From IMG/VR virus record IMGVR_UViG_3300047353_000337, positions 1 to 64,000 of that record: DNA of 64,000 bases. One strand, 5' to 3'. Positions 1 through 16,372 of the stretch are shown one piece after another. Numbering within the stretch: position 1 is the stretch's first letter; each line of letters opens with the position of its first letter. Both the position numbers and the translations under genes were made by a program. The notes beneath the pieces are model-generated. The model was not told the DNA's origin. It saw only the letters and a list, made by a program, of their open reading frames with translations, and did no database searches. Source of the stretch: a virus.

Positions 1-90
1 TACGCTCAAACTACTTACACTTCGTTTTGATTAAAGTAATAGATATGAATTAAAGCAATATTACGTAGTAATATTGTAATTGCTTCATGT

Positions 91-410
91 AGATTGTTTC
101 AGTCAGACGGAACCTACTACGGTTCCATCTAATCTCAAAGTTTGCACTTCATGTGAGTTCGTCACAGCCGAGATTCGGAAGTAGGTGTTTTCACTGTTCA
201 ATGGGCTCTGACCTTTCCCAACCTACGTCGACATCGCTTACGCTACCTCTCGCTTCGTTCCTGTTGCTAAAGAGTTTTTATGAACATTGTGGTTCTTGAC
301 TAACAGCAACTAGCCTATATTGATCGTTATGGTTCGTATGAATCAATATGTTTCGTGTGTGGTTCTCACGCCACCCTTTACACAGCGGAATTATCTATCT
401 GGCCCGCTAT
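91..410 (-). ncRNA. Candidate structured RNA of unknown family
   Basis: This 433-base stretch without a protein gene holds several inverted repeats. The clearest are 105-114 with 121-130 (loop of 6) enclosed by 91-95 with 131-135; 153-156 with 162-165; 181-186 with 221-226, which encloses further short helices; 317-324 with 342-349; and 382-388 with 404-410. Within the first helix (108/127), near the 181-226 helix (194/201) and in the last helix (383/409), the odd pair is C-A read as plus-strand RNA but G.U read as minus-strand RNA. This suggests minus-strand transcription, which is also the direction of the upstream genes. I did not recognise a tRNA, tmRNA, RNase P RNA or group I intron core. 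Helices were found by eye, without covariation. Confidence 0.35.
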
Positions 411-433
411 CCTTATGTGCTGTATTGATTTGC

Positions 434-856
434 CTATATATTTTGTAAGTGTTCTTTTAGAATTTTTGATCCACCAACTCTAACATTAATAATACCATTA
501 TAGTATTCATCTGTTTCGAGTACTCTGCGTTCAAACTGTTCTCGTGCCTCTAAGTAACTTGCAATGCCTCTGCTTGGACAATAATGTAATATTTCTCTAG
601 TAAAGTTATCTTCGCCTAGTTGTTCAACGTCTGCGTTAAGTCTATCACTAGATCCCCAATAAGTTTGCCAGTCACTTTCTTTTGTTCCACGTCTTTTGTT
701 TTTTTTGCCTTTTAGCGGGGGCTTTGTTGTCTTGAATTTTGCTAGTTTTTTGCCTACGTACTTCATGCCATTGACTTTATTTGTTATCAAGTAGACAAAT
801 GCTTCAACGCCTTCAGGCATTTCTTTCACTTTTTTACCTTGATAAGTCCATTGCAT
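434..856 (-). CDS. GIY-YIG nuclease-like protein
   Basis: A 140-residue protein resembling GIY-YIG endonucleases. The N-terminal half carries the VYL...YVG pair (residues 21-23 and 33-35), replacing the canonical GIY and YIG tripeptides. A basic stretch follows at about 43-58, and a Glu/Arg-rich helix near 103-112 (EAREQFERR) could supply the catalytic Glu. Such proteins in T4-like phages are often free-standing homing endonucleases, but some are merely nuclease-like. It is the last protein gene of the minus-strand early unit, just downstream of a small gene and upstream of the candidate structured RNA. No DNA-binding C-terminal module is visible, so target and activity are unknown. Confidence 0.6.
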   Translation of the reverse strand: MQWTYQGKKVKEMPEGVEAFVYLITNKVNGMKYVGKKLAKFKTTKPPLKGKKNKRRGTKESDWQTYWGSSDRLNADVEQLGEDNFTREILHYCPSRGIASYLEAREQFERRVLETDEYYNGIINVRVGGSKILKEHLQNI

Positions 857-874
857 ATTGGTACTTACCGTTGC

Positions 875-1075
875 CTATGATTCTGGGGCCTCGTTCTTGG
901 AATTATGCTTGTGATGTATCTCGTCCATACGTTCTTTTGCTAGTGATCGTATCTCACGTAACCACTTTCTGCTCTCACGATGCGTTCGTACAGAGTTACG
1001 AGCCTCAAACTTTTCGTTTGCCTTAAAGTATGCCATATATGCCTTAGTCAATTTATCGTGTGTATCGTCATTCAT
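875..1075 (-). CDS. Small conserved-type phage protein, function unknown
   Basis: A 66-residue, highly charged, probably all-helical protein with many Lys, Arg and Glu residues and no membrane segment or cysteine. Its start overlaps the end of gp46 by 8 bases, as expected for translational coupling in the same transcript. Small proteins of this look are common beside gp46 in marine T4-like phages, but I know no function. The close overlap and normal codon use make it a likely real gene. Confidence 0.6.
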   Translation of the reverse strand: MNDDTHDKLTKAYMAYFKANEKFEARNSVRTHRESRKWLREIRSLAKERMDEIHHKHNSKNEAPES

Positions 1076-2843
1076 TGTGTATTTCTACATCGTTCTCATA
1101 TGATGTAAAGCCATTTTCCTTTATAACCTTAAGAACGTGTGTTACTCTTCCTACTAATTCATCTTTATGGGATATAAGATAAACATTCTTCTGTCTTTCT
1201 CTACCCATCTTCTTCAAAATACCTAAAGAGTTTTCAACTCCGCTAGTATCCATTCCGCTATCAATCAACTCATCAATAAACAATAAGTTGATATTCTGAT
1301 ATAAACTTTCCCAAACATCTCTAAATGCAAAACTCATACCAAGTATAAGTCTATTACGCTCGCCCCTACTTAAATTATCAAAGTCTAGGTCTTGTCCTAG
1401 TTGTGTAATCTCAACTGACAAGTCATTTTGGAATACAACACTATGTGGTAATCCAAGTTTGTCAAGATAATTTGTAAGTCTGTTGTTTAGGTATGCTAAG
1501 TTTTGATCAATAATTTTCTTACGAATAAAACTATCTTTGTTTGTTAATAGTTTTAACATAAAGTCTTGATGTTCTTTTAGACTTGTCAAATTGTTTACAG
1601 TGTCCCAGTTAATTTCTTGGATAGCACTATTGTTTAATTCATCAATTTGTTCTTGATACGGATCAATTTCAGTTTTAGAACGATCAAGTGCTTCTTGTAA
1701 TTGTGCTACGTTTTGTTTATGATCATATACTTCTTTAATAGTTTCATAGAACGCTGTAGGCTTACCATTAATATCACCAATGTCAGTAAGAGACTTTGTT
1801 ACATCTATAACTTTATCACTTACTTCTGTTTGATATGCTATTGCATCTTCAAGTTCTTTATTCTTTTTAACTGCTAGTTCTTCTTTTTTCTCATCATGTA
1901 GCTCTTGACCACATGTATGACATGTACCTTGATCTAAGTTTTCTGCATCTTTTTGTGCTTTTTCAACACTTCTATCTGCACGTACTAATGCTGGCTCTAA
2001 TGTGCTTAACTCTTTTTTAAGAGCCAAAATAGCATTATTTTTTTCTTCCCAAGTAGATAGTTTTTCGTGTTTATCTAGTTCATCTTCTACATCTAAATGT
2101 TCTAATTCGTCAATTGAGCGTTCTAGTTTAGCAATGTCTTCTTTTTGTTTTGTATTCCAAGCACTTTGTTTTGTTTGCAAACTACGTACAGTTTCACCAA
2201 TACGTGTATTACTAGTTTCAATAGCATTAATACGAGCCGTTTCGTCTGTAATTGCTTCTTTAGTTTGTCTTACTTTTTCTTTAAGTACTTCTGCCTTTTC
2301 AGACAATATTGTAATACCAAGTAATTGTTCAATAATATCTTTTTGATCATTAACTCGCATACTTAAGAACGGTTCTGTGTATGTGTTTAGTGCAACAATA
2401 TGCTTAAACATATTATGCGACATACCTAATAGATGTATAATGTCTTCTTGCGTTTTACGTGAATCGCCTTGCGACTCATCTAGCATTTCTTGCTCTTGAC
2501 CGTCTACATAAAACTTTAATAAGTTAGGACCACGTCCTCTTTCAATCTTATAATCACGCCCATCTTTTTCAAAAGACAGCGTAACTAACATACCTTTGTT
2601 GTTAGTTTTATTAATTAAATTATTGCGTTTAATATTTGTTAAAGCAAGCCCGTATAAGGCATAACTTAATGCATTAATAATAGTAGTCTTACCTGTACCG
2701 TTACGTGATCCGCTATCATCGCCACCTTGGTCAAGGTTTTCTCCTAGCACAAGTGTTAGTTGTTGTTTATCAAAATCAACTGCTTGGGTCTGATTGCCCA
2801 CACTCATGAAGTTCTTTACGGTTAAACTTTTTATTTTAATCAT
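1068..2843 (-). CDS. gp46: Recombination endonuclease subunit gp46 (Rad50-like ATPase)
   Basis: A 591-residue SMC/Rad50-type ATPase, partner of gp47. With gp47 it resects DNA ends for recombination-dependent replication and helps degrade host DNA in T4. Visible features are a Walker A motif (GSRNGTGKTT, about residues 45-54), two long coiled-coil arms, a zinc-hook CxxC (CHTC, about residue 308) at the hairpin tip, the ABC signature LSRGERNR near 490 and Walker B LLFIDEL near 517. Length is close to T4 gp46 (560). The start overlaps the gp47 stop (ATGA), so the two are coupled. Nothing is missing from the active site. The identification is firm. Confidence 0.96.
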   Translation of the reverse strand: MIKIKSLTVKNFMSVGNQTQAVDFDKQQLTLVLGENLDQGGDDSGSRNGTGKTTIINALSYALYGLALTNIKRNNLINKTNNKGMLVTLSFEKDGRDYKIERGRGPNLLKFYVDGQEQEMLDESQGDSRKTQEDIIHLLGMSHNMFKHIVALNTYTEPFLSMRVNDQKDIIEQLLGITILSEKAEVLKEKVRQTKEAITDETARINAIETSNTRIGETVRSLQTKQSAWNTKQKEDIAKLERSIDELEHLDVEDELDKHEKLSTWEEKNNAILALKKELSTLEPALVRADRSVEKAQKDAENLDQGTCHTCGQELHDEKKEELAVKKNKELEDAIAYQTEVSDKVIDVTKSLTDIGDINGKPTAFYETIKEVYDHKQNVAQLQEALDRSKTEIDPYQEQIDELNNSAIQEINWDTVNNLTSLKEHQDFMLKLLTNKDSFIRKKIIDQNLAYLNNRLTNYLDKLGLPHSVVFQNDLSVEITQLGQDLDFDNLSRGERNRLILGMSFAFRDVWESLYQNINLLFIDELIDSGMDTSGVENSLGILKKMGRERQKNVYLISHKDELVGRVTHVLKVIKENGFTSYENDVEIHNE

Positions 2844-3850
2844 AGTTCGTCATAAATTCCCAATAATAACTTCTTGTCGTAGTTTTCTGTATCCAATGCA
2901 GTAATTTCTTTAGTAACAATTTCATCTACACTTTCAAATGTACTAATGTCAATGTCTGTATGTATTTCTTCGTCTTGCTGACTAGGAATTAATGTAATTT
3001 CTCTGCAATCGTATTCATTAATAAATGTTTCTTTGATAAAACTTGCTTCCTCGTAACTAATTGGAAGATCAAGTGTTACTCTAAGATACATTTTGTTTTT
3101 AAGTAGTGTGTCTTTTTCGTCTAGTAGTTGACTAAGTTTAACTGTACGATACTTAGGACAGTCAAGCCAATCAATATAATGAGGTTCTTTGTTATTTTCT
3201 TTATCAAGTATCATCATTCCACGTTTATCATCCCATGCATCTGCATAGTTGTGTGGAAAAGCATTACCCATGTAATGTACTGCACCTTGTACTTGACGTT
3301 TGTGGAAGTGTCCACTAAACACATAATCTTGATGTTTGAAATGTTCAGCTTTTAATTCACCGTGATCAGGCATCTGTACCATTGCGTTCATATAGAAACT
3401 AGGCAGTTCAAAGTGACCAAACATATATTTTGTTTTTATGCTACTAATCTTCTTCCATTCTTCGCCAACAAGCCAAGGAACTAATGCAACATCATCTTCA
3501 ACTAGTATTTCATCAACATATGTAATACCAGGAATATGTTTACCAAACTCTACACTGTAAACATCACGTTTGTCTTTGTAGTACAAGTCGTGATTACCTG
3601 CAAAAAAGTAAAACTTTTCAAATGCCGCACCTAATTTTTCTAGGCAACGTGTAGTTGCATCTAGTGTTTGTACATTAATGGTATTTCTATTGTGATGCCA
3701 ATCACCACAAAAAATACCGGTTTCACAACCGTTAGCTTTTGCTTGTTCAATAAACCAATCTACAAAGTCTTCACAATCTTGTAGGTGTAGTCTACTGTTA
3801 GACTTCAATCCAAGATGAATATCTGTAAATACTGCCGCTTTTTTAAACAT
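2840..3850 (-). CDS. gp47: Recombination endonuclease subunit gp47 (Mre11-like nuclease)
   Basis: A 336-residue calcineurin-like metallophosphoesterase, the nuclease partner of gp46. All metal-binding motifs are present in order: DIHLG (from about residue 10), GDWHHN (about 49), GNHD (about 94) and GHFHKR (about 180). T4 gp47 is 339 residues. A strong ribosome site (AGGAG) precedes the ATG, and a consensus sigma70 promoter lies at 3870-3898. It reads directly into gp46. The identification is firm. Confidence 0.96.
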   Translation of the reverse strand: MFKKAAVFTDIHLGLKSNSRLHLQDCEDFVDWFIEQAKANGCETGIFCGDWHHNRNTINVQTLDATTRCLEKLGAAFEKFYFFAGNHDLYYKDKRDVYSVEFGKHIPGITYVDEILVEDDVALVPWLVGEEWKKISSIKTKYMFGHFELPSFYMNAMVQMPDHGELKAEHFKHQDYVFSGHFHKRQVQGAVHYMGNAFPHNYADAWDDKRGMMILDKENNKEPHYIDWLDCPKYRTVKLSQLLDEKDTLLKNKMYLRVTLDLPISYEEASFIKETFINEYDCREITLIPSQQDEEIHTDIDISTFESVDEIVTKEITALDTENYDKKLLLGIYDEL

Positions 3851-3869
3851 CCGTACTCCTCTTTTGTAT

Positions 3870-3898
3870 ATTATACGTTATATTTTAATATAAGTCAA
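3870..3898 (-). promoter_or_regulatory. Sigma70-type promoter for gp47-gp46 unit
   Basis: On the minus strand, TTGACT (3898-3893) and TATAAT (3875-3870) are separated by exactly 17 bases, the ideal spacing for the bacterial housekeeping sigma factor. The -35 box overlaps the stop codon of the upstream gp55 gene. It should give early or middle expression of gp47, gp46 and the small genes after them, independent of phage late factors. Confidence 0.8.
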
Positions 3899-4740
3899 GC
3901 GTTTTTGGATGGATTTGGAACAGGTTTAGCTTCTTGTGTTTTAACACGATCCCATTCGCCTTGTGCTTGCCTAGTATAACTAGGATTCATATTGTTCATT
4001 TCTAATATATCATCTCTAATATTCTGATTGCGTTTTTCAATATTAATAACTCTTACAAATGAGTTAGTAACTGCCGCAGTATAATAAGCAAACGGATTGT
4101 TAGACTTTGATTCGTCAAACTGTAAACCAATTTGTGCTAACTGTAGAATTGCTTGTCCACGCATTTCATCATTGTAAGTATATCCACGTACATTGCCTCT
4201 TGTTGCGTATCTATCACATAACTTCATCCACATCATAGCAAGTTTGTTAGTTGCTTTACCGTGTGCTTTGTTAAAGTATCCGTTATCCATACCACCTTCC
4301 CAGTGGCTTTTTCCAACACACACTAAACTATCACCGTCGTCAAATTTATAATGTTGAAAAGGAGGAAAGTTTAACTTAACTCTATAGTCTGCTGGTGTTT
4401 TAGGATTCTTTTTCCGTCCCGGTTCTTCTGGAATATGTTCAAATGACATAATCCTAAAAATTAACTCGTCTTTTTGTATCTTTCTATAGTCAATTTCAAA
4501 CTCAGCAAGTTTTACTCTTTTACCTGCTAATTTTGCGGCTTCAAAGGCTTGTTGCTGTAAGCGTTTTGCTTTATTGCGTTTTGCTTCAGCTATTGTTCTA
4601 ATATTAATTTTACCAATTTCTGGTAAGATTATATCAAATTGGCCATATTCAGGATCAACATAACTACAGAATGTAGTCTTTGATTTGTGTATTTCCTTTA
4701 ATATGTCCTTGTTGTTTAGATAATTTACACGTTTATTCAT
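3895..4740 (-). CDS. gp55: Late-transcription sigma factor gp55 with large insertion
   Basis: A 281-residue homologue of T4 gp55, the sigma factor that directs host RNA polymerase to TATAAATA late promoters. Residues 6-21 (YLNNKDILKEIHKS) match the T4 N-terminus. The core from about 165 to 245, with RGYTYNDEMRGQAI, FDESKSNNPFAYYT and the following FVRVINIEKR, matches the T4 segment ending FVQRIKKERK. Between them sits an extra block of roughly 135 residues (about 25-160) with a basic helix and an aromatic region; T4 gp55 is only 185 residues. The C-terminus is Pro/Lys/Asn-rich and lacks the hydrophobic SLDFLYE-like tail with which T4 gp55 binds the sliding clamp. It has its own sigma70 promoter. 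Confidence 0.85.
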   Translation of the reverse strand: MNKRVNYLNNKDILKEIHKSKTTFCSYVDPEYGQFDIILPEIGKINIRTIAEAKRNKAKRLQQQAFEAAKLAGKRVKLAEFEIDYRKIQKDELIFRIMSFEHIPEEPGRKKNPKTPADYRVKLNFPPFQHYKFDDGDSLVCVGKSHWEGGMDNGYFNKAHGKATNKLAMMWMKLCDRYATRGNVRGYTYNDEMRGQAILQLAQIGLQFDESKSNNPFAYYTAAVTNSFVRVINIEKRNQNIRDDILEMNNMNPSYTRQAQGEWDRVKTQEAKPVPNPSKNA

Positions 4741-4762
4741 ATTTTCTCCAATTGTTTGTTAT

Positions 4763-4791
4763 ATTATAAACTACTCTGTTAATAAAGTCAA
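4763..4791 (-). promoter_or_regulatory. Sigma70-type promoter for gp55
   Basis: Minus-strand TTGACT (4791-4786), a 17-base spacer and TATAAT (4768-4763) form a consensus bacterial promoter 23 bases before the gp55 ATG. The -35 box directly abuts the divergent late-promoter motif at 4792-4798. The late sigma factor is therefore probably made early from a host-type promoter. Confidence 0.8.
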
Positions 4792-4798
4792 CTAAATA
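4792..4798 (+). promoter_or_regulatory. Late-type promoter for baseplate genes (CTAAATA)
   Basis: CTAAATA differs at one base from the ATAAATA core of T4-type late promoters. It lies about 24 bases before the first structural gene (ATG 4822), which also has a good AGGAG site. It is divergent from the gp55 promoter. Its position at the head of the late operon supports it; the one-base deviation lowers confidence. Confidence 0.55.
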
Positions 4799-4821
4799 AT
4801 GTATATAGGAGACAATTAATT

Positions 4822-5739
4822 ATGGCAAGAGAAGACGGACCAGGTACACGACAAGGAACCCCGCCAAAAGGTAAAACAGGCACTAAATCGGCAGGACAAA
4901 ATCCATTAACTAACATTCCTGAATTTGTTTCAGGCGGTATCGAAAAAATGAAAGATATCGGCCAAGACATGTTTTCAGACGTAGCAGGAGATTTAGGCTC
5001 TAAGATGCGAGGCAAAAATCTTCCTGGAAAAGGTTCTAATAATTTTGAAGCTAAAGAAAAAGCATATTTTAGTACTGAACTTGAAAATAAAGATTGGCGA
5101 GTCAAATTATCTGTTCCTCCGTCAATTGCCGCAGATGGGTTGCTGTCTCCCTTACAAGAATCTACTACAGGTGGACACATGGTTTTTCCTTATACACCTA
5201 CAATTATTATTAGTCATTCAGCCGCATATAATACTGTAAGCCCTATACATAATAATTATCCGTTCTTTGCGTATCAGAACTCACAAGTGGAAGCAATGAC
5301 TATTGTAGGACAATTTTATTGTCAAAATAGTGTGGAAGCACGATATTGGATGGCATGTTTGCATTATTTAAGAACAATGACTAAAATGGATTATGGTTTG
5401 AACAGCACAGGATCTCCACCACCAATTGCAAAATTAAATGGATATGGAGATTATGTTTTTAATAATGTTCCAGTTATACTACAAAACTTTACAGTTGATA
5501 TGCCTAATGAAGTTGACTATATTAGCACAGCATTTACCACTGGACCAAAGTTGACAGGAGCAGACGCTCGCCAGGCTATGATGAATCCAGAAGGTGGAAC
5601 AAAACTTAATTATGGTTGGGCACCAGCAGAATCACAATTTTCAATTACTGTACAACCTATATACAGTAGAGCTAAACAGTCTCAATTTAACTATACAGAC
5701 TTTACTAACGGATCTAATCTTGGACAAGGATATATTTAA
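4822..5739 (+). CDS. gp48: Baseplate tail-tube cap protein (gp48/gp54 family)
   Basis: A 305-residue baseplate protein of the type annotated in marine T4-like phages as the tail-tube cap gp48. The first 75 residues are Gly/Lys/Pro-rich and probably disordered. The rest is a compact beta-rich domain with the recognisable segments MVFPYTPTIIISHSA, GSPPPIAKLNGYGDYVFNNV and a C-terminal PIYSRAKQSQFN. In T4, gp48 and gp54 form the platform on which tube polymerisation starts, and both are related to the tube fold. I cannot exclude that this is the gp54 equivalent. The ATG has an AGGAG site, and the stop overlaps gp53 (TAATG). Confidence 0.65.
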   Translation: MAREDGPGTRQGTPPKGKTGTKSAGQNPLTNIPEFVSGGIEKMKDIGQDMFSDVAGDLGSKMRGKNLPGKGSNNFEAKEKAYFSTELENKDWRVKLSVPPSIAADGLLSPLQESTTGGHMVFPYTPTIIISHSAAYNTVSPIHNNYPFFAYQNSQVEAMTIVGQFYCQNSVEARYWMACLHYLRTMTKMDYGLNSTGSPPPIAKLNGYGDYVFNNVPVILQNFTVDMPNEVDYISTAFTTGPKLTGADARQAMMNPEGGTKLNYGWAPAESQFSITVQPIYSRAKQSQFNYTDFTNGSNLGQGYI

Positions 5740-6026
5740 TGAGTAGCCCATACAAAAATACACAATCGCAACTAAACGGTGCTCTTGATATTTTAACAAT
5801 CAGACCTGTGCCAGCATATGCTGATGATCCGTTATATACTATTGAGCCACAGTATACACATAGACCAGATTTACTAGCTCATGATATGTACGGGTCAAAC
5901 AGACTATGGTGGATATTTGCACAACGAAACTTAGACGTTATCGAGGATCCTATTTACGATATGGTTCCAGGTGTACAAATTTTTTTGCCGGACCCTAAAC
6001 GTGTTAAAGAACTAATAGGAGAATAA
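5739..6026 (+). CDS. gp53: Baseplate wedge protein gp53
   Basis: A 95-residue protein matching the core of T4 gp53, which links wedges to each other around the hub. The typical segment runs DPLYTIEPQYTHRPDLLAHDMYG, followed by LWWIFAQRNLDVIEDPIYDM and a short beta segment. Marine phage versions are about half the length of T4 gp53 (196), as here. The start overlaps the preceding stop (TAATG). Confidence 0.85.
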   Translation: MSSPYKNTQSQLNGALDILTIRPVPAYADDPLYTIEPQYTHRPDLLAHDMYGSNRLWWIFAQRNLDVIEDPIYDMVPGVQIFLPDPKRVKELIGE

Positions 6027-6028
6027 AT

Positions 6029-9000
6029 TTGTCTACATACCGAAAGGATCCTAAAACTGGACAAACACTAATCACTCCAGGTAATAAAGTAGATCCATTA
6101 AATAAAAACGGTAAAACATATAACGAGTTGGGTACAAAGCCTCCCAAACAACCTCCTCCGGCTGAAGGAGATCCAGAAGAAGCTAAAAAGTTTATGCGAG
6201 CCCTTGGCATGCATGGTCTTGCCGACATGTATGAAACAAACGGAGATGCGGCAGTAAAAAATCCTGGCCAGTTGCCACCTATGTTTCAGAACCATCCATT
6301 TGCTGGAGTTATTGAACAGCCAAATGTAACATCAAGTCCTACAGTTAAAATTTTAAATCCAGAGGAAATGTATCCTCAAGCACAAAATTATGGGTCACGA
6401 AGTGGCGGCGGAACAGCAACAGTTGGTGATGTTGCAAGAGTTAAGACACCACCTAAAAAAGTAGTATCTCAAATAGCACTAGAACCAGGATCATTACCTT
6501 TACCAAACGAATTAGAATCGTTTGCATCTTATAATAATATATTTTCTTTTGGCTGTCTAAGCCCGGAAGAACTAAATTTTCCAGATGACACTTATAGAAA
6601 AACTGGACTTAGAAATGGACACATGGTTCTTAAATCAGGCGGAGCATTTGATGGTACTCAAAAGCCAAGAACACATGCAGAGAAACACTACAACATAGAC
6701 ACACAATATTTTATAGATAATGTAGATATAGAAACTGTAATTGCACCAAACAAAAAAAGTAGAATGACTAACTTTCACAATTTAAGTTTTGAAGTTAGAG
6801 AACCATATAGTATGGGCCAACTTCTACAAACAATGCAATTAGCATCAACTAACGCAGGATATTCTAATTATTTAGAAGCACCTTGGTTACTAACAATTAA
6901 TTTTGTAGGCTGGCAGGATATAGGTGAAGGCGAAGTTAACCCTCAACTATCGGCGGCCAAACGATTGTTACCTTTAAAAATTGTAAGTGTTGATTTTAAT
7001 GTTGATACAGAAGGTTCAATTTATAGATTTTCTTGTAGTGCATTTAACGATGAAGCATTTATGGACGGAACACAAAACTTGCCATGTAATGTTACTATAC
7101 ACGGAACAGACCTTCAAGAAATTTGTCAATCAGGATTAGGAAGTTTAGCAACACAAATTAACACACACTTATTACAAAAACAAAAGTTTCAAAAAAACAA
7201 AATTGAAACGGATGAATTTGTATTTACTTTTCCATTAGATACTTCAAGTGCTTCAGCTTCAAATTTGTTAAAAAATGCTACAAATTCTGGAACAGCATAC
7301 GGCACGAATAAAGCAACTGAAGGAGATGAATACCTAGTTAAAGAAGGAATTGATTATGAAGCGGCCTTTACAACGATTGATTCTCGAAAAGATAGTGCAG
7401 GATATGTAGAAGACAACAACGATTGGGCCGCTGGTAAGACTCAGCAGAAAAAAGACTATGTTAATTCATTGTTAGGTTATAGTATTAAAAGAGGTAATCT
7501 AAGCGAAACAATTAAAAAAACGTTAGCAAACAGAGATGCAGGTATTAATGCTATTGGCAGAAATAAAATTACAACTGAAATACCAACAGCATATGGAGAT
7601 ACTCCATTTGGCAAATCAGGATTTGCTTTAAATCCTAAAACAATGACATATTCAAAAAATGGTACACAAATTAATCCAAAACAACGCACTATACAGTTTA
7701 GAGCCGGAACACCAATACAAAGGGTCCTTGAAGAACTTGTGTTGTTAAGTGCCTTTGGTGAAACTATAATGAGAAAAGAACTTCAAGCCAAAGACGGTAC
7801 TATACCTTGGTTTAGAGTTGAAGCTGATGTATATATTGTTGAAGATCAAGAAGCTGAAAAAGCACAAGGAAGAATGCCAAGAATCTATGTGTATAGAATT
7901 GTACCATATAGAGCAAATACAAGTATATTTAAACTACCTAATGATCCTCCAGCAGGATACAATAAACTAGTTGAAGATGCGGCCAAAGCATATAATTATA
8001 TGTATACAGGACTTAATAAAGATATTTTAGAATTCAATATTGAATTTAATAATGCATTTTATAAATCTATAGCAACTGATTACAATAATAAAAGCGGTAA
8101 CAATGATGCTTCAAATCAGTCTACAACAGAAAAAGGTACGCAACTTGAGTTAGACAACGATACTACAAATAGAACTGGTGCTAACGTAACAAACATACAA
8201 AACGATACATCACAGTCTAAATCAAACGAACTTGCTGGTGCAATGACCGAAACAGCAGAAAGAAGAATGGCTAGACAGTTTAACGAAGCTCTTGTAAATA
8301 GTGATGTTGACTTAATTACAATGACTATTAAAATTTTAGGAGATCCTTATTATATTGCAGATAGCGGAATGGGAAATTATAACTCAAGTGTAACTGAATG
8401 GACTAATGTTACTTCAGATGGAAGTATTAATCACCAGAACGGACAAGTTGATGTACTACTAAATTTTCTAACTCCTATAGATATTGACGATCAAATTGGA
8501 AATTATAAAATGGACGGTCCAGCAGTTGGAGTTTCAAACTTTAGTGGATTGTATACTGTTATTGGAGTCAATAATAACTTTTCAGGTAACTTGTTTACAC
8601 AAGAACTTGAACTAGTAAAACGTCCTAATTTTGATTTAAAAGATCTAGAAGAAGCGGCGGCAAAGAAAATACTAGATGAAGAAAAAGCATATATAAAAAG
8701 ACAAAATGAAGCTAGAAAATTTGGCGAAGATAGTCCTCAGTATAATTTTGCTGTAGCTGATAAAGACGGTGATGGCGTAATAAATGTTAGTGAACAACTA
8801 CAAGCCAATTTAACTGCTGAAGAAGCGGCTAAGTTAGCAAATAATAAAGATAAACCAAAACCATCACAACCAAAAGTAGCTAAAAATGCACAAGTTGAAT
8901 CAGATGCTAACTATCAAAGAGAAGCATTTGGAACAACAAGTAACCCAAATGCTGGTATAGATGGTGGCTATGGTCCAGATAACACAGCTAACTCTAACTC

Positions 9001-9043
9001 AGCTGAATTACCAGGCGATGACGGCGACTATGGAGTACAATAG
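6029..9043 (+). CDS. Large baseplate hub-region protein with EF-hand motif
   Basis: A 1004-residue structural protein between gp53 and gp5. That position, its length and beta-rich segments such as YSMGQLLQTMQLAS and ITMTIKILGDPYYIAD fit the large hub protein (often called VrlC in marine phages) that may take the place of gp27. The start is TTG, supported by AGGAGA six bases upstream. The first 140 residues are Pro/Lys-rich. Near the C-terminus, residues 911-922 (DKDGDGVINVSE) match the canonical EF-hand calcium loop, with acidic ligands at positions 1, 3, 5 and 12. An acidic Asn/Gly-rich tail follows. The hub role is inferred from position. Confidence 0.6.
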   Translation: MSTYRKDPKTGQTLITPGNKVDPLNKNGKTYNELGTKPPKQPPPAEGDPEEAKKFMRALGMHGLADMYETNGDAAVKNPGQLPPMFQNHPFAGVIEQPNVTSSPTVKILNPEEMYPQAQNYGSRSGGGTATVGDVARVKTPPKKVVSQIALEPGSLPLPNELESFASYNNIFSFGCLSPEELNFPDDTYRKTGLRNGHMVLKSGGAFDGTQKPRTHAEKHYNIDTQYFIDNVDIETVIAPNKKSRMTNFHNLSFEVREPYSMGQLLQTMQLASTNAGYSNYLEAPWLLTINFVGWQDIGEGEVNPQLSAAKRLLPLKIVSVDFNVDTEGSIYRFSCSAFNDEAFMDGTQNLPCNVTIHGTDLQEICQSGLGSLATQINTHLLQKQKFQKNKIETDEFVFTFPLDTSSASASNLLKNATNSGTAYGTNKATEGDEYLVKEGIDYEAAFTTIDSRKDSAGYVEDNNDWAAGKTQQKKDYVNSLLGYSIKRGNLSETIKKTLANRDAGINAIGRNKITTEIPTAYGDTPFGKSGFALNPKTMTYSKNGTQINPKQRTIQFRAGTPIQRVLEELVLLSAFGETIMRKELQAKDGTIPWFRVEADVYIVEDQEAEKAQGRMPRIYVYRIVPYRANTSIFKLPNDPPAGYNKLVEDAAKAYNYMYTGLNKDILEFNIEFNNAFYKSIATDYNNKSGNNDASNQSTTEKGTQLELDNDTTNRTGANVTNIQNDTSQSKSNELAGAMTETAERRMARQFNEALVNSDVDLITMTIKILGDPYYIADSGMGNYNSSVTEWTNVTSDGSINHQNGQVDVLLNFLTPIDIDDQIGNYKMDGPAVGVSNFSGLYTVIGVNNNFSGNLFTQELELVKRPNFDLKDLEEAAAKKILDEEKAYIKRQNEARKFGEDSPQYNFAVADKDGDGVINVSEQLQANLTAEEAAKLANNKDKPKPSQPKVAKNAQVESDANYQREAFGTTSNPNAGIDGGYGPDNTANSNSAELPGDDGDYGVQ

Positions 9044-9049
9044 AACATA

Positions 9050-11815
9050 ATGGATCAATTAGAATCAAATAATATCAATAAACGCTCTTCGGGTGTAGGC
9101 TTTGCAAAAATGCCTCCAGGTCCTTTTCTAGCAAAAGTAGTCAATCATTTAGATCCTAAACGTCAAGGAGCATTGCGGGTACAATTATTACCTAACACAG
9201 TTAGCGGCTCAGACGATTTAGATGACGGACAATTATTTACAGCTAGATATTGCTCACCGTTTTACGGAACTACAGATGTTCGTAGTAACGGAAAAAATAA
9301 CGACTATTATAATACGCAACAGAGTTATGGATTTTGGGCAGTACCGCCTGATCCAGGAACTAAAGTTCTTGTTATATTTGCAGAAGGATCACCAAACCAG
9401 TGTTATTGGATAGGATGTGTTCAAGACGAATATATGAACATGATGGTTCCGGGTGGCTATCCAGCAGACAAGTCAACTAATATTGTACAAGACGGGATAC
9501 TAGATGACTTCAAAGGTAAAAGTTTACCTGTAGGAGAATTTAATAAAAGTATTGGAGCTAACGCAACAGGACCTCTAGATATACGTAAAGGAAATAATCC
9601 AGATAAATTTCCAAGACCTATTAATCCTATGATGTCTTTGACACTTGCAAAGCAAGGTCTTGAACAAGATGTTATTAGAGGAACAACAACTACAAGTTCA
9701 AGACGTGACATTCCTAATACTGTTTATGGTTGGAATACTCCAGGACCTTTAGATAAACGTGACGGCAAGCCAAAAGGAAAATATGGAGATGTACGAAGTT
9801 CAGCTTATATGTTTAGAAGCAGACTAGGCGGATCTGCATTTACAATGGATGACGGAGATCCTACTATTCTTAGAAATGGAATAGCAAAAGAAAATCCCGC
9901 ACTATATTATGATATTGAGAATACTCCTGATAATATTAGTAAGTCAGATGTTACATTACCGTTTAATGAACATATTAGATTACGTTCAAGAACAGGCCAT
10001 CAAATTTTATTACACAACACAGAAGACTTAATTTACATTGGTAATGCAAATGGTACAGCATGGATTGAATTAACATCAAATGGTAAAATTGATGTGTATG
10101 CACAAGATAGTATTAACCTAAGAACTGAAACAGATCTTAACATAAAAGCTGATAGAGATATAAACATTGAGTCTGGTAAAGATATTAACTTTACAGCAGG
10201 ACGTAATTATAAGTTAATGGTTAATAATGATAGAGATGTTAAAACAAATAAAAACGAAACTACATTTGTTGGAATGGATAAAAACGAATGGACAGGTAAT
10301 AATCATACAGTTGCAGTAGGTAGCGACCAAGATATTCAAATTAAAGGAACACAGCGTTCTACTATTAGTGGAGATTATAATTTACAAGTTAGTCAAGATG
10401 GACATATTGCTATAAACGCAAACTTGCATAGTAAAGTAGTTGGCGATTATAGACAAACTGTAAATGGTGCATTCAATTTAAAAACCGCTGGTGATAACAA
10501 ATTTACTAGTGGAGCAAGTACACAAATTAAAAGTACTCTTGCAAATAAATTAGATGCAGGAACATTAACTTCTATTTTAAGTGTAGGAACACATTCAGAA
10601 ACTGCATCACAAATACACATGAATAGTACAGTGCCTGCAACAACAGCAGATGTTGCCGATACAGTTGGCGATGCATTTAGTTTTCCGGTAACTAATTCAG
10701 TAATAGATAATACTAGCCGAGTGCTTGATAAAGATAATGTAGTTATGAATGATGCAAGCGGAAATCCATTAAGAGTAACAGCAGATGCACTTAGAGCAAG
10801 TGTTGCAGTTGAAGCAAACAGACCAAGACGTATTCCAAGACACGAACCATGGGACGGACACGAAAACATTAATCCAGCAGGACATACTCCTAGTGCTACA
10901 GCAAGTATATTATCACCGTCACCAGAAGTTAGATTACAACAACCTCAGATTGATAAAGATAGTGATATACCTGATTACTCAGAAACATCGGGTATCTATA
11001 ATGCACAAGATGCATATATCCGAGATCCAGTAACAGGTGAGCGTGTAAAAGAAACGTTTGATGCTGACAAAATTCCAACTAAAAACACAGATAATGCATC
11101 AGGTAACCAGCCAGCAGATCCTGTGCCTGTTGACGATATGCAACGGTATTTCTTAAGCGAACTTATAAAAGGTTTAGGATTAGATCCATTAACTTGGAAA
11201 TCAACAAATGCTCATGCACTAGCAATGGCTTGTGCCCAAGTACAAAAAGAATGTAACTTTGAACCAAGGTCAGAAAATATGAACTATAGAGTATCAACTC
11301 TACAGCGTGTATGGCCAAATAGATTTGGCGGATCAGCAGGCAAGCGTAAAGCTGAAACACTTGTTGCAGGTGGACCACCTGCTATTGCAAACTCAGTATA
11401 CGGAAATAGAATGGGCAACGGCTCTGCAGAAACAGGCGACGGATTTAGATATAGAGGTAGAGGACTTATACAAATTACAGGAACAAGTAACTATAAAAAA
11501 TATGGCGGACTAGCAGGTGTTGATATTTACAACAATGCTGACATGGCAAACGATCCTACAGTTGCTACAAAAGTTGCAGTAGCATACTTAAAAAGTAAAA
11601 GTGTAGATTGGACAAGTGCAGATTTTAATGCTTTAGGTACACAGTTTAAAAAAGCAGTAGGATACGCAGATGCTGGTGGATCAAACACAGCAAGCAGAAT
11701 TGGATTAGGAAAAGGATTCTATCAAAAAATCATTAATAATGAACTTACACCATTAGCAAGTTTAATCTTATCAACACCTATCGATAAAGGTGCAGGAACA
11801 TCACAGGTACAGTAA
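9050..11815 (+). CDS. gp5: Baseplate central spike gp5 with C-terminal GH19-type lysozyme
   Basis: A 921-residue central spike. Residues about 20-140 form the gp5 OB-fold domain (GPFLAKVVNHLDPKRQG ... GTKVLVIFAEGSPNQCYW). Residues about 320-490 hold short beta repeats (DINIESGKDINF, VAVGSDQDIQI) typical of the trimeric spike helix. From about 700 to 890 comes a glycoside hydrolase family 19 domain with candidate catalytic Glu734 and Glu742 (QVQKECNFEPRSENMNY) and the signature FRYRGRGLIQITGTSNYKKY. T4 gp5 instead carries a T4-lysozyme domain between OB-fold and spike. The enzyme should cut peptidoglycan during DNA injection. Confidence 0.9.
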   Translation: MDQLESNNINKRSSGVGFAKMPPGPFLAKVVNHLDPKRQGALRVQLLPNTVSGSDDLDDGQLFTARYCSPFYGTTDVRSNGKNNDYYNTQQSYGFWAVPPDPGTKVLVIFAEGSPNQCYWIGCVQDEYMNMMVPGGYPADKSTNIVQDGILDDFKGKSLPVGEFNKSIGANATGPLDIRKGNNPDKFPRPINPMMSLTLAKQGLEQDVIRGTTTTSSRRDIPNTVYGWNTPGPLDKRDGKPKGKYGDVRSSAYMFRSRLGGSAFTMDDGDPTILRNGIAKENPALYYDIENTPDNISKSDVTLPFNEHIRLRSRTGHQILLHNTEDLIYIGNANGTAWIELTSNGKIDVYAQDSINLRTETDLNIKADRDINIESGKDINFTAGRNYKLMVNNDRDVKTNKNETTFVGMDKNEWTGNNHTVAVGSDQDIQIKGTQRSTISGDYNLQVSQDGHIAINANLHSKVVGDYRQTVNGAFNLKTAGDNKFTSGASTQIKSTLANKLDAGTLTSILSVGTHSETASQIHMNSTVPATTADVADTVGDAFSFPVTNSVIDNTSRVLDKDNVVMNDASGNPLRVTADALRASVAVEANRPRRIPRHEPWDGHENINPAGHTPSATASILSPSPEVRLQQPQIDKDSDIPDYSETSGIYNAQDAYIRDPVTGERVKETFDADKIPTKNTDNASGNQPADPVPVDDMQRYFLSELIKGLGLDPLTWKSTNAHALAMACAQVQKECNFEPRSENMNYRVSTLQRVWPNRFGGSAGKRKAETLVAGGPPAIANSVYGNRMGNGSAETGDGFRYRGRGLIQITGTSNYKKYGGLAGVDIYNNADMANDPTVATKVAVAYLKSKSVDWTSADFNALGTQFKKAVGYADAGGSNTASRIGLGKGFYQKIINNELTPLASLILSTPIDKGAGTSQVQ

Positions 11816-12018
11816 TGCATAAATTTGTAATAATGAAAAACAATGAACTTTTTACGTACACAAATTTTGAGGATATTCCTCTAGACTTTGATCACATAAT
11901 TGAATTCAATCCTTCAGTACCCCCTGAGCCACATACTGAAGAACAACACCAAGAAATTGCACAATGGCCAGATAGATTAGAAACATTAATGGAGATAGAA
12001 CGTGCCCGCAGTAACTAG
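11815..12018 (+). CDS. Small conserved-type baseplate-region protein
   Basis: A 67-residue acidic protein that begins FVIMKNNELFTYTNFEDIP and ends in a charged helix. It starts inside the gp5 stop (TAATG) and its end overlaps the PAAR gene by 17 bases, so it is embedded in the baseplate operon and almost certainly translated. No signal peptide or membrane segment is visible. Function unknown; a chaperone or linker for the spike tip is only a guess from position. Confidence 0.6.
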   Translation: MHKFVIMKNNELFTYTNFEDIPLDFDHIIEFNPSVPPEPHTEEQHQEIAQWPDRLETLMEIERARSN

Positions 12019-12292
12019 AATTGGAGATGCAGATGTAGCTCACTGTTCGGGTATGACTAGAGCAGAAGGATCAGGTGATGTATTTGCAAATGGAATATCT
12101 GTAAGTAGACAGGGTGATAATAATACTTCACATTTACTACCTCCTGTACCATGTCCAAGTCATGCCGCACCAATAGCAGTAGGATCAACAACAGTTTTTA
12201 CAAATGGCAAAGGAACAGGCAGAATAGGAGATGCGATATCAGGTTGTACAAGCGTAGCGGCTGGCAGTCCTAATGTTTTCGCCGGCGGATAA
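12002..12292 (+). CDS. PAAR-repeat spike tip protein (gp5.4-like)
   Basis: A 96-residue PAAR-type protein. It shows the pattern of short beta strands and turns with repeated GDADVAH, VFANGISVSRQGD, HAAPIAVGSTTVFTNGKG and VFAGG segments, and His and Cys residues able to bind a metal at the apex. PAAR proteins sharpen the tip of gp5/VgrG spikes. The start is GTG, in the end of the preceding gene. Its position just after gp5 fits the T4 gp5.4 role. Confidence 0.9.
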   Translation: MPAVTRIGDADVAHCSGMTRAEGSGDVFANGISVSRQGDNNTSHLLPPVPCPSHAAPIAVGSTTVFTNGKGTGRIGDAISGCTSVAAGSPNVFAGG

Positions 12293-12310
12293 AATAAGGT
12301 AAATATTAAT

Positions 12311-12745
12311 ATGGCAACAGATTTATACAAAACAATTAAAATTACTCCTAAAAGGCAGTCAAAACCTCCTGTATCACAGAAGGCATACAGAGGATTCAGC
12401 ACAGTTAATCCTGACAACAATTCTTTCCAACAATTTGATGTTTCATTAATTAAACAAAATTTATTAAATCATCTTAATATACGCCAAGGAGAAAAGTTAT
12501 CTGATCCTAGATTTGGTTGTATTATTTGGGATGCCTTATACGAGCCATTAACATCACAACTAAAAGACGCAATTACAGAAAATGTTACAAATATTGTAAA
12601 TTACGATCCAAGAACTAGAGCTACAGGAGTTCAAGTTTCGGAATACGAAAGCGGATTACAAATAGAATGTACGTTGATGTACTTAGACTACAATATTAGT
12701 GAACAACTAAGATTACAGTTTGATAAAAGCGTTGGATTGTCGTGA
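12311..12745 (+). CDS. gp25: Baseplate wedge protein gp25
   Basis: A 144-residue member of the gp25/IraD-like wedge family. Recognisable are the segment IRQGEKLSDPRFGCIIWD, in which many gp25 proteins have an E-R-P-F/G pattern, and the C-terminal strand region. In T4, gp25 joins gp6 and gp53 to form the wedge core and the sheath-initiating handshake. Length is close to T4 gp25 (132). It lies directly before gp6. Confidence 0.9.
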   Translation: MATDLYKTIKITPKRQSKPPVSQKAYRGFSTVNPDNNSFQQFDVSLIKQNLLNHLNIRQGEKLSDPRFGCIIWDALYEPLTSQLKDAITENVTNIVNYDPRTRATGVQVSEYESGLQIECTLMYLDYNISEQLRLQFDKSVGLS

Positions 12746-12775
12746 CACAATTAACTACTAGTATTATTGTTTTCA

Positions 12776-12782
12776 ATAAATA
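12776..12782 (+). promoter_or_regulatory. Late promoter before gp6 (ATAAATA)
   Basis: ATAAATA followed by CAGTA lies 26 bases before the gp6 ATG in a 63-base gap. The same ATAAATACAGTA string occurs at 31410, before another structural gene. It matches the -10 element recognised by T4-type gp55. Confidence 0.7.
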
Positions 12783-12808
12783 CAGTAGAGTTTAAAGAAG
12801 GATAATCA

Positions 12809-15800
12809 ATGTCATCAACCGACAGACAAAATAGATTGCTACTTGCAGAAGATTGGCAAAAAGTATATCAAAGTTACCGTAATGCGGAATTCCGTAGCTA
12901 CGACTTTGACACACTTAGACGGGCAATGATCACCTATCTAAGACAAAATTACCCAGAAGATTTTAACGATTATGTAGATACATCAGAGTACCTTGCACTA
13001 ATTGATATGATTGCATTCTTAGGTCAGAACATTAGTTATAGAGTTGACCTAAACGCAAGAGAAAACTTCTTAGAACTAGCAGAACGTAGAGAATCAGTTC
13101 TCCGTTTAGCTCGTATGCTTTCATATAATCCTAGACGTAATCAGTGTGCAAACGGACTACTTAAATTTGAGACAGTAAGCACTACAGAAAATTTAATTGA
13201 CAGTAATGGCACTAACTTATCAGACCAAACTATTATCTGGAATGACCCTAGTAATGCTAACTGGTCAGAACAATTTAGGCGTGTGTTGAATTCAGCACTT
13301 CCACAAAACGGAACAGTTGGTAAGCCATCAATAACCAAAGCAATTAATGGAGTACTTACACAACAGTATAGATTTACATCTACAGGTAACGATGTTCCTA
13401 TATATACTTTTAGTAAATCAGTTAACGGTTCTTCAACACAATTTGAAATTGTATCAACAGGTATTGATACTGACTTTAATGTAATAACAGAAGAAAATCC
13501 TGTACCAGGAAATAGTCTAGCATTTTTATATAGAGAAGATGGAAGAGGTTCAGGAAGTTCAAACTCAGGATATTTTTTACATTTTAGACAAGGAAGTTTG
13601 AAATCTAACGCATTTGACGTTTCAGCTCCGTCAGCTAATCAAAGGATTTCAATTGAAGCAGAAAATATTAATGATACTGATGTTTGGCTTTATGGTTTAA
13701 CCAGTAATGGTATTCCTAGTAAAATTTGGACAAAGGTAAGTTCAACTGAAGGGAACAATGCAATCTATAATAGTTTAAACAAAAAACTTAAAGATTTTTA
13801 TGTTGTACAAACTAGAGCAGATGACGAGATTAGTTTAGTATTTGCAGACGGCACATTTGGTAACTTGCCGCAAGGCGGATTTAGAGTTTATTATAGAACT
13901 AGTGCTAATAGATCGTTAAGTATTGCTCCAAGTGAATTAACAGATATTACTATTAGTTTTCCTTATCTTTCTAAGGCAGGAACAACAGAAACAATGACTG
14001 TTGGCTTAGAACTTAAAACACCAGTAACTAATGCTACTATTAGTGAAACAACTTCAAGTATTAGAACTAACGCTCCGCAAACTTACTATACACAAAATAG
14101 AATGGTTACTGGCGAAGATTATAATATTGTTCCTTTAACAACTAATCAAGAAATTATTAAAGTAAAATCAACAAATAGAATTGCTAGTGGTATTAGTAGA
14201 TATTTTGATCTTAAAGATGCTACTGGAAAATATTCTAGTACAAATTTATATGGCAGTGATGGAATACTTTATAGAGAGCCATATGAAAACAAAACGTCTT
14301 TTACGTTTGGCACTCAAACAGATATTGAAGGCGCTATTGAAAATACAATATTGCCTATTATACAAAATAGAGCAATTAGTAACTTTTACTTTGCAAACTA
14401 TGCTAAGATTATTGTTAGTGATCTTAATGCTACATGGAAGCAGTCAACTAAGACAACTAACAGTTCAACAGGACTATTAAATAATATTAATGATGTTGCA
14501 TATCAACTTGGAACATTTACAGGCGGTTCTTTAAAATATGTAGAAGCTGGAGCATTGCTTAAATTTAAACCACCAGTAGGATTTTATTTTATTGGTAATG
14601 GAGAGCTTACAAGTAACGCATCAGCAAAAGGCGCAAGTACATATAAATGGGTAAAAGTTATAAGCGTAGATGGTGCAGGCACAAGTGTTAACAGTGCAAC
14701 AGGTTTTGGACCAGTTGTGTTTAATGAAATATTACCTGCAAACAGTATACTAGAAGAAGTTAAACCAAAACTAGTAAAAGACATTTCAACAGATGTTAGA
14801 TCACAAATTATTGATCAAGTATTTTCATATAAAACTTTTGCATTAAGATATGATCAAGTTACAAGAAACTGGCGTATTATTATTAACGAAAATTTAAACA
14901 CAGTAGATGTGTTTAGTAATGGTAAAACAGGTGATGTAACAAATAATCAACTTGACTCAAGTTGGCTAATATTATTCGAAACAAACGGAGAAAAATATAC
15001 AGTTACAAATAGAGGACTTAGATATATTTTTGAAAGCGATAAAGAACTTTCTTTTTACTTTGATGGACAAAATAAAATTTACGATTCACAAACAGGACAG
15101 TTAGTAAAAGACAAAGTTGCAATTATGAACTTTAATACTAAGCCTGACGAACTTACACCATTTAATAATGATGTTAATTGGGAAATTGTTAATGCTTTTC
15201 GAAACACAGACGGATATATTAACAGCAAAAAAGTAGAAGTTAGTTTCTTTGATTTAAATGATGATGGCAGTATCGACGATCCAGACATATTTGATGCTGT
15301 AGTTGCACCTTTAACAAATACATCTACAAAATATATTTTCTTAAAGAAAGAATCATCGGATCAAGGATTTAACAAATATAATTATTATAATGCAGGTAGT
15401 ACAATCCAAACAGTTACAACAGAAACTGAAATTGGAGCATACAGTCAGTATTCAACAGGCCAAGTTTTTTATATTATTGATAACGATAACTTTAAAGTAT
15501 TAACTAATAATGTTCTTGTAGTAACAGCAGATTATAGAGCACACGTTGGCAGACCAGATCTTAAATTCCAGTACGTACATAGTGCAGATGATGGTAATAG
15601 AATTGATCCGAGTGTAAGTAATATTATTGATGTTTACATGCTTACACAAACATATGATCAAAACTATAGGAAGTATATTAGTGGAGCGATTGCTACTGAA
15701 CCTTTACCACCAAGTACAGATGAATTATTCCAAAACTACGGTGCAGAAATTGGCCAGTATAAATCAATTAGTGATGAAGTAATTTATCATTCCGTACAAT

Positions 15801-16372
15801 ATAAGCCTTTATTTGGTGTGCATGCACAAGAGAATTTACAAGCAACATTTAAAATTGTAAAGAATAGCGGTGAAGTAGTTAATAACAATGAAGTAAAAAC
15901 ACAAGTGATTAGTGCAATTAATTCGTTCTTTAGTTTGCAAAACTGGGATTTTGGAAATACATTCCATTTTACTGAACTTGCAACACATATAATGAATAGA
16001 ACAGCACCAGATGTTGTTAATATTTTATTAGTACCCAAACAAGCAAATCAAGGGTTTGGAAGTTTATATGAAGTTAAAGCAGAAAATAACGAGATCTTTA
16101 TTAACGATGCTACAGTTGAAGATATTGAAATTATTGATTCTGTAACAGCATCTAGAATCCAATCGGCAGGAAATGTAGTTACATCTACAGGAACTATTAA
16201 TACAGGAATTAAGAGTCAAGCATTATCAACAACTACAACTACTACAGCAACTACTACTAGTACAACAAGTTCGAGTAGTTCAAGCAGTTCGGGTAGTTCA
16301 GGTAGTTCAGGTAGTTCAGGATCAAGCGGTGGAAGCGGAAGCTCCGGCGGCGGCGGAGGTTATGGATACTAA
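12809..16372 (+). CDS. gp6: Baseplate wedge protein gp6 with Ser/Gly-rich tail
   Basis: A 1187-residue wedge protein; T4 gp6 is 660. The N-terminus (about 40-115) has the typical gp6 segment with LRQNYPEDFNDYVDTSEYLALIDMIAFLG and RENFLELAERRESVLRLARMLSY. The J-like core includes RMVTGEDYNIVP near 430. gp6 dimers link neighbouring wedges into the iris that opens on infection. The middle and C-terminal regions are expanded with beta-rich repeats. The last 45 residues are a Thr/Ser run, GSS repeats and then poly-Gly ending YGY, encoded partly by three exact copies of a 9-base unit at 16292-16318. The stop overlaps the next start (TAATG). Confidence 0.9.
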   Translation: MSSTDRQNRLLLAEDWQKVYQSYRNAEFRSYDFDTLRRAMITYLRQNYPEDFNDYVDTSEYLALIDMIAFLGQNISYRVDLNARENFLELAERRESVLRLARMLSYNPRRNQCANGLLKFETVSTTENLIDSNGTNLSDQTIIWNDPSNANWSEQFRRVLNSALPQNGTVGKPSITKAINGVLTQQYRFTSTGNDVPIYTFSKSVNGSSTQFEIVSTGIDTDFNVITEENPVPGNSLAFLYREDGRGSGSSNSGYFLHFRQGSLKSNAFDVSAPSANQRISIEAENINDTDVWLYGLTSNGIPSKIWTKVSSTEGNNAIYNSLNKKLKDFYVVQTRADDEISLVFADGTFGNLPQGGFRVYYRTSANRSLSIAPSELTDITISFPYLSKAGTTETMTVGLELKTPVTNATISETTSSIRTNAPQTYYTQNRMVTGEDYNIVPLTTNQEIIKVKSTNRIASGISRYFDLKDATGKYSSTNLYGSDGILYREPYENKTSFTFGTQTDIEGAIENTILPIIQNRAISNFYFANYAKIIVSDLNATWKQSTKTTNSSTGLLNNINDVAYQLGTFTGGSLKYVEAGALLKFKPPVGFYFIGNGELTSNASAKGASTYKWVKVISVDGAGTSVNSATGFGPVVFNEILPANSILEEVKPKLVKDISTDVRSQIIDQVFSYKTFALRYDQVTRNWRIIINENLNTVDVFSNGKTGDVTNNQLDSSWLILFETNGEKYTVTNRGLRYIFESDKELSFYFDGQNKIYDSQTGQLVKDKVAIMNFNTKPDELTPFNNDVNWEIVNAFRNTDGYINSKKVEVSFFDLNDDGSIDDPDIFDAVVAPLTNTSTKYIFLKKESSDQGFNKYNYYNAGSTIQTVTTETEIGAYSQYSTGQVFYIIDNDNFKVLTNNVLVVTADYRAHVGRPDLKFQYVHSADDGNRIDPSVSNIIDVYMLTQTYDQNYRKYISGAIATEPLPPSTDELFQNYGAEIGQYKSISDEVIYHSVQYKPLFGVHAQENLQATFKIVKNSGEVVNNNEVKTQVISAINSFFSLQNWDFGNTFHFTELATHIMNRTAPDVVNILLVPKQANQGFGSLYEVKAENNEIFINDATVEDIEIIDSVTASRIQSAGNVVTSTGTINTGIKSQALSTTTTTTATTTSTTSSSSSSSSGSSGSSGSSGSSGGSGSSGGGGGYGY
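16292..16318 (+). repeat. Three tandem 9-bp repeats in the gp6 tail
   Basis: GGTAGTTCA occurs three times without interruption and is flanked by degenerate copies. It encodes Gly-Ser-Ser units in the low-complexity C-terminus of gp6. Repeats of this kind change copy number by polymerase slippage without breaking the frame. Confidence 0.9.

Follow-up and report, generated by a model that had tools for sequence, protein, structure and literature searches.

A conserved back-to-back contact between a sigma70-type promoter and a late promoter box at the late sigma gene of uncultured phages, and its possible role as an early/late switch

In the virus sequence studied here, a promoter of the host sigma70 type ahead of a late sigma factor gene touches, back to back, a late promoter box facing virion structural genes, which raises the question of whether this contact arose by chance, follows from close packing of divergent genes or acts as a switch between early and late transcription. 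The window analysed comprised positions 1–64,000 of a 72,813-base virus record. Direct reading of its plus strand gave ATTATA at 4763–4768 and AGTCAA at 4786–4791, which on the minus strand are TATAAT (4768–4763) and TTGACT (4791–4786), separated by a 17-bp spacer. A TTGACA-like and a TATAAT-like hexamer at 17 ± 1 bp are the marks of a sigma70-type promoter, and this one (4763–4791, minus strand; spacer 17) scored 11/12; its transcript, serving gp55, gp47 and gp46, is predicted to start near 4756. The T4-type late promoter box CTAAATA, identified by direct reading and motif count, occupies 4792–4798 on the plus strand, and the late transcript is predicted to start near 4804, provided that the box follows the T4 register (−12 to −6). 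The contact at 4791/4792, proposed in an initial annotation of this DNA, was found exactly as described, and the joint itself reads GTCAACTAAATA (4787–4798, plus strand). Adjoining the −35 element is a triplet at 4784–4786 (plus strand), AAA in the window and an AAA or TTT block in relatives. There are 22 bases between TATAAT and the gp55 ORF, which starts at 4740, and 23 between CTAAATA and the structural ORF, which starts at 4822.

The gene to the left encodes a gp55-type late sigma factor of 281 aa (3895–4740, minus strand; PHROG 12791, E 5.5e-80). Late boxes require gp55, and the phage carries a sigma of this type as well as a T4-type box. A further match, to PHROG 234, was confined to residues 159–260. 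The protein has about 150 additional N-terminal residues, the listed cyanophage gp55 proteins aligning from about residue 157 only, and its structure model (pLDDT 57.8) was too poor for use. Further to the left on the same strand are the SbcD-like gp47 (2840–3850), with its own sigma70-type promoter at 3898–3870, and the SbcC-like gp46 (1068–2843), assigned by family search. The first rightward gene encodes a virion structural protein (4822–5739, plus strand; PHROG 12050, E 4.4e-51), with AGGAG ahead of it at 4807–4811, and is followed by a gp53-like baseplate wedge subunit (5739–6026, plus strand; PHROG 7145, E 1.3e-23). The rightward genes also include a single ORF of 5013 aa at 16372–31413. 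A megablast search with window positions 2001–14000 gave no named-phage match. The direct reading and the PHROG 12791 match confirm the earlier proposal of a TTGACT-17-TATAAT promoter pointing left before a late sigma gene, and the division into an early and a late promoter is supported as well.

The score of the early promoter is weak proof taken alone, because a scan of positions 1–12000 returned 46 promoter-like matches where shuffled sequences gave 46.6. The gp55 promoter was the joint best of these matches, 11/12 being reached at two sites only, ahead of gp55 and gp47. CTAAATA was rarer in the window than in shuffles (10 observed, 24.9 expected), and on the ORF map the copy at 4792 was the only one of the ten directly ahead of a gene start. 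The combination of exact TTGAC and TATAAT elements with an opposed TAAATA 0–3 bp away occurred once in the window and in none of 60 first-order Markov copies. The joint is not a product of chance, and its conservation across relatives is stronger proof of this than the window statistics.

Conservation was assessed in the best 80 of at least 600 loci matching the window gp55 protein; 78 were readable at the gp55 start (L027 and L050 were not) and addition of the window gave 79 sequences. The joint was GTCAACTAAATA in 72, GTCAATAAATA in six and neither in one; GTCAATAAATA is GTCAACTAAATA minus one C, giving the canonical ATAAATA. The early promoter pattern was kept in 78 of the 79, the exception being L059, and among the 78 joint-bearing sequences an exact ATTATA lay at the 17-bp distance in 75. 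Among 66 distinct junctions the distance from the −10 element to TAAATA was 24 bp in 61 and 23 bp in five, L059 being unmatched. Leader lengths varied on both sides, with a standard deviation of 4.1 for gp55 (66 junctions, including one leader of 0 with a wrongly assigned start codon) and 3.6 for the structural gene (65 measured). In L059 the early promoter has a 16-bp spacer, and 57 bases separate GTCAA from the nearest TAAATA beyond it; that relative therefore does without the abutment.

The gene context was similarly stable, with a structural gene divergent from gp55 in 75 of the 80 loci and a gp55 start no more than 210 bases from the locus edge in the other five. Gene gp47 was present in all 80, gp46 in 70 and gp53 in 72, many loci being cut. 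The neighbouring structural protein was 35–89% identical over the aligned part, and the joint was nevertheless kept. An open scan for GTCAACTAAATA with AGGAG gave at least 120 matches, of which 118 were examined: 106 had a divergent gp55 and a −10 element (at most one mismatch) at 16–18 bp, six were at a contig end and six were elsewhere. The joint was also present in all 11 related records chosen via gp55 loci, once in ten and twice in one (12 copies). A spacing this constant across many phages speaks for a functional promoter pair.

Beyond these close relatives, the nearest named gp55 proteins were those of jumbo phages, at no more than 47% identity. In 12 chosen jumbo records (gp55 33–47% identical to that of the window) gp55 was always divergent from its neighbour, and a baseplate wedge gene was annotated within three genes on the divergent side in eight. 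In Atu_ph07 and Phosso a nucleotidyltransferase adjoins gp55; SCTP-2 has an oppositely oriented gene after gp55, and gp47 and gp46 are not annotated beside gp55 there. Seven of the 12 (RaK2, Munch, CBB, 121Q, GAP32, XaC1 and Hallingskeid; gp55 37–39% identical) had a gap of 27–29 bp between the −10 element and TAAATA, with a poor −35 that at best departs from TTGACA at two to three positions and, in some, a second −10 candidate. This geometry was not seen in the other five: the gap was 38 in Vibrio phage 2.275, ambiguous in SCTP-2, and no such arrangement was found in MIJ3, Phosso or Atu_ph07. When ten jumbo records were scanned for GTCAACTAAATA with one mismatch allowed, exact copies were found in MIJ3, Atu_ph07 and 121Q, and only that of Atu_ph07 lay at the gp55 junction, without a good −10 element at 16–18 bp. 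The copies in MIJ3 and 121Q lie away from gp55, so the 12-mer alone occurs at other places. A scan with the Atu_ph07 gp55 recovered Atu_ph07 itself and no other phage. In cyanophage P-SSM7, gp55 sits inside a co-directional gene run and is not divergent from its neighbours.

Opposed early and late elements were also found at other divergent gene pairs. In four related records (G000–G003), 22 early promoters passed the filter. All six with a divergent neighbour, four of them the gp55 site, had an opposed TAAATA 1–8 bp from the −35 element, compared to one of the remaining 16, at 33 bp. A scan for GTCAACTAAATA-type joints with a gene start 6 bases past the −10 element gave 56 stretches, which were grouped by reading the flanking ORFs and by family search on one member per class. 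A GDSx-motif protein was on the late side in 14, and in nine of these the early-side gene could be read as UvdE; a further 14 shared one common junction sequence between a glycosyltransferase (early) and a tail fibre-like gene (late); two paired a DNA polymerase (early) with a Nudix gene (late); four were gp55; and 22 were others, some within genes. The GDSx-motif protein, for which the family search on one member gave no match, is probably a hydrolase. The UvdE/GDSx joints of L266, L241, L285 and others read TATAAT-N6-ATG and TAAATA-N5-ATG, so spaced that leaderless mRNAs are possible on both sides; L266 had no megablast match among named phages. At the second GTCAACTAAATA joint of G002 (88909–88948; loci L106 and L290) the two flanking genes begin so near the joint that either transcript would have almost no leader. 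In G001 (86371/87312) and G003 (59429/60327), divergent genes have TAAATA boxes inside each other's leaders, and their late transcripts would therefore overlap.

Allowing gaps of 2–22 bp gave at least 120 stretches. Among the matches listed, tblastn with six gp55 proteins placed gp55 beside two, which can also be read as GTCAATAAATA, and found no adjacent gp55 at 118; the commonest gap was 5 (38 cases). Fifteen of these stretches were inspected: ten had a phrog_11591-like protein on the late side (two of the ten confirmed by search), with a gene of 83–95 aa on the early side in nine of the ten. A family of small proteins (83–95 aa) with the pattern CRRR...T.KYTELE (L301, L317, L319, L299, L309, L346, L342 and L304) is encoded divergently to a structural gene, with overlapping sigma70-type and late promoters between the two, and one member gave a three-helix model (pLDDT 88.9), a fold search with which gave no match at E ≤0.001. 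An identification of this protein as gp33 was dropped, being unsupported by PHROGs, Pfam, PDB sequence search and phage tblastn. Overlapping pairs of predicted sigma70-type and late promoters are common, and the arrangement is not special to the sigma gene. Since other divergent pairs have gaps of 2–22 bp, exact spacing is not generally required, and the variety of their gaps makes the fixed gap a feature of the gp55 clade.

The reading that we favour for the gp55 site, with rather better than even confidence, is that of a conserved divergent early/late promoter pair whose main effect is steric exclusion. From the elements and the genes they face, we infer that host sigma70 polymerase would read the minus-strand promoter early, giving gp55 and then gp47 and gp46, after which polymerase carrying gp55 would read the plus-strand late box and structural gene transcription would start. 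The distance from the −10 hexamer to TAAATA in the window is 24 bp, on opposite strands, the geometry of overlapping divergent promoters, and polymerase covers far more than this. Because only 24 bp separate the two outward-facing −10 elements, and given the known size of polymerase, the footprints would overlap; a polymerase at one promoter would exclude the other, leaving the site either early or late. The geometry thus supports the earlier suggestion that simultaneous occupancy would be difficult, and retention of the arrangement across many related marine bacterial viruses suggests that both switches are probably unusable at once. Polymerase bound at the late box through gp55 would also damp gp55 synthesis once late transcription was under way. 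Feedback as the purpose of the pair, raised in the initial annotation, is rated lower than exclusion, and early promoters may also be shut off by additional means, as T4 biology indicates. Exclusion alone needs no base-exact spacing, which makes simple feedback an incomplete account.

Something more than the promoter hexamers is conserved at this site. Within the spacer of the gp55 promoter, the columns TAC, T and A were nearly invariant. As a control, the best match to the gp47 promoter in 110 bp upstream in the same 80 loci had TTGAC and, at a 17-bp spacing, a TATAAT-like box (at most two mismatches), with no fixed upstream or spacer sequence and no comparable invariant spacer columns by eye. 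Among 77 distinct composites, the triplet beside the −35 element was TTT in 50, AAA in 25 and otherwise in two. A quick tree was built from 69 gp55 proteins, 68 of which carried AAA or TTT; along it the triplet changed at least 12 times, with at least three changes forced by well-supported branches. Shuffled labels gave 22.4 changes on average compared to the 12 on the tree, a clustering that makes the AAA/TTT pattern partly one of descent. The block hints at an additional constraint or a bound protein, and to a protein recognising A-tracts, AAA and TTT would look the same.

One extension, which we put forward tentatively, is that the joint may serve as a two-way promoter module that can be reused: an early −35 element and a late box fused to the exact base at the late sigma gene, and copied or re-evolved at the UvdE/GDSx, DNA polymerase/Nudix and glycosyltransferase/tail fibre-like pairs; its exact spacing and interchangeable A-tract would be recognised either by a regulator or by both sigmas, giving a self-limiting switch without a classical repressor. 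Of the alternatives to exclusion as the main effect, the one that survives best, doubtful as we hold it, is a further putative DNA-binding regulator of phage or host that would cover the −35 element and the joint, repress early and aid late transcription in the manner of phi29 p4, and have the spacer bases and the AAA/TTT block as its site. The near-invariant spacer columns, not seen by eye at the gp47 promoter, the presence of AAA or TTT in 75 of 77 composites despite repeated change between them and the likeness of A-tracts in either orientation to minor-groove readout are all consistent with such a protein, as is the reported use by phi29 p4 of A-tract minor-groove properties, with two of its sites overlapping an early −35 element (PMC3100819). 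However, the UvdE and glycosyltransferase joints lack those spacer blocks, the clustering of the triplet on the tree is partly due to descent, and spacer conservation could in part serve sigma70 directly.

Compactness would be a simpler explanation, in which divergent genes about 80 bp apart acquire overlapping promoters that have no regulatory meaning. The overlapping sigma70/late pairs with varied gaps at many divergent gene pairs, the position of late boxes close ahead of genes and the lack of abutment in L059 are all as this would predict, but at the gp55 junction leader length is variable on both sides of a joint that stays nearly constant, and the joint survives strong divergence of the adjacent structural protein. 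We therefore consider compactness alone unlikely, and steric exclusion between the paired promoters is retained as the preferred reading.

A T4-type late promoter is marked by a TATAAATA-like box ahead of late genes, and CTAAATA is a variant form, which has been reported as the late motif of phage Aeh1 (PMC1524935). The initial annotation was right as to the kind of promoter, which precedes a virion structural gene, but the commonest box between genes in the four related records is ATAAATAC (17 compared to 1.5 expected). In the same records ATAAATAC is strongly depleted within genes, its coding frequency predicting 0.1 copies between genes where 17 were counted. A search for a late-promoter upstream element among 56 TAAATA boxes lying 8–50 bases ahead of genes in these records was unproductive, 52 of them having no common motif. 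Nor did a k-mer test of 80 intergenic stretches (8,164 bases) give a general motif besides −35, −10, late box and Shine-Dalgarno, the extras being weak (AACTAC, 15 compared to 7.0). It is very improbable that GTCAA belongs to late promoters as an upstream element and is not a −35 element: Atu_ph07 keeps GTCAACTAAATA without a good −10 element at the right distance, but GTCAAC precedes only four of the 56 boxes, all at the gp55 site, the further case at G002 88933, excluded by the 8-base filter, has a −10 element of its own, and a −35 element is lacking from the late promoters of T4 (PMC2988020). Equally improbable is a coupling by supercoiling, in which early firing would leave negative supercoils that open the late box so that the pair helps rather than excludes, since divergent, close promoters and an AT-rich late box would suit it but a fixed gap is not required.

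Divergent promoters that overlap are a known kind, and so are early/late switch regions. In phi29, A3 points away from A2b. The A2c/A2b–A3 region of that phage resembles the window in its packed early and late promoters, with regulator sites that overlap the early −35 element and decide the switch, and differs in relying on p4 and p6 (PMC3100819); the late promoter of the window presumably needs the phage sigma encoded on the early side, and here the boxes abut. The pLS20 conjugation genes likewise have a switch built of overlapping divergent promoters, but in a plasmid system with DNA looping and no late phage sigma (PMC4207663). The TAAATA box and gp55-type sigma are shared with T4. In cyanophage P-SSM7, by contrast, no structural gene diverges from gp55. 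For jumbo phage CBB, a gp55-like CBB_244 with a predicted promoter and an ATAAATA late motif have been described (PMC5259590). The present analysis found in CBB the divergent gene order of the window, with −10 and TAAATA 28 bp apart, but a −35 element that is not TTGAC, and the pair is not presented as overlapping or as a switch in the passages of that paper on which we draw. In the parts of the literature searched we found no account of a phage clade in which the early promoter of a late sigma gene abuts a late box at a constant distance. Set beside these systems, the joint, which occurs in many uncultured phage contigs, ties a late sigma gene to a late promoter and so provides a defined 36-bp element for testing late-sigma timing.
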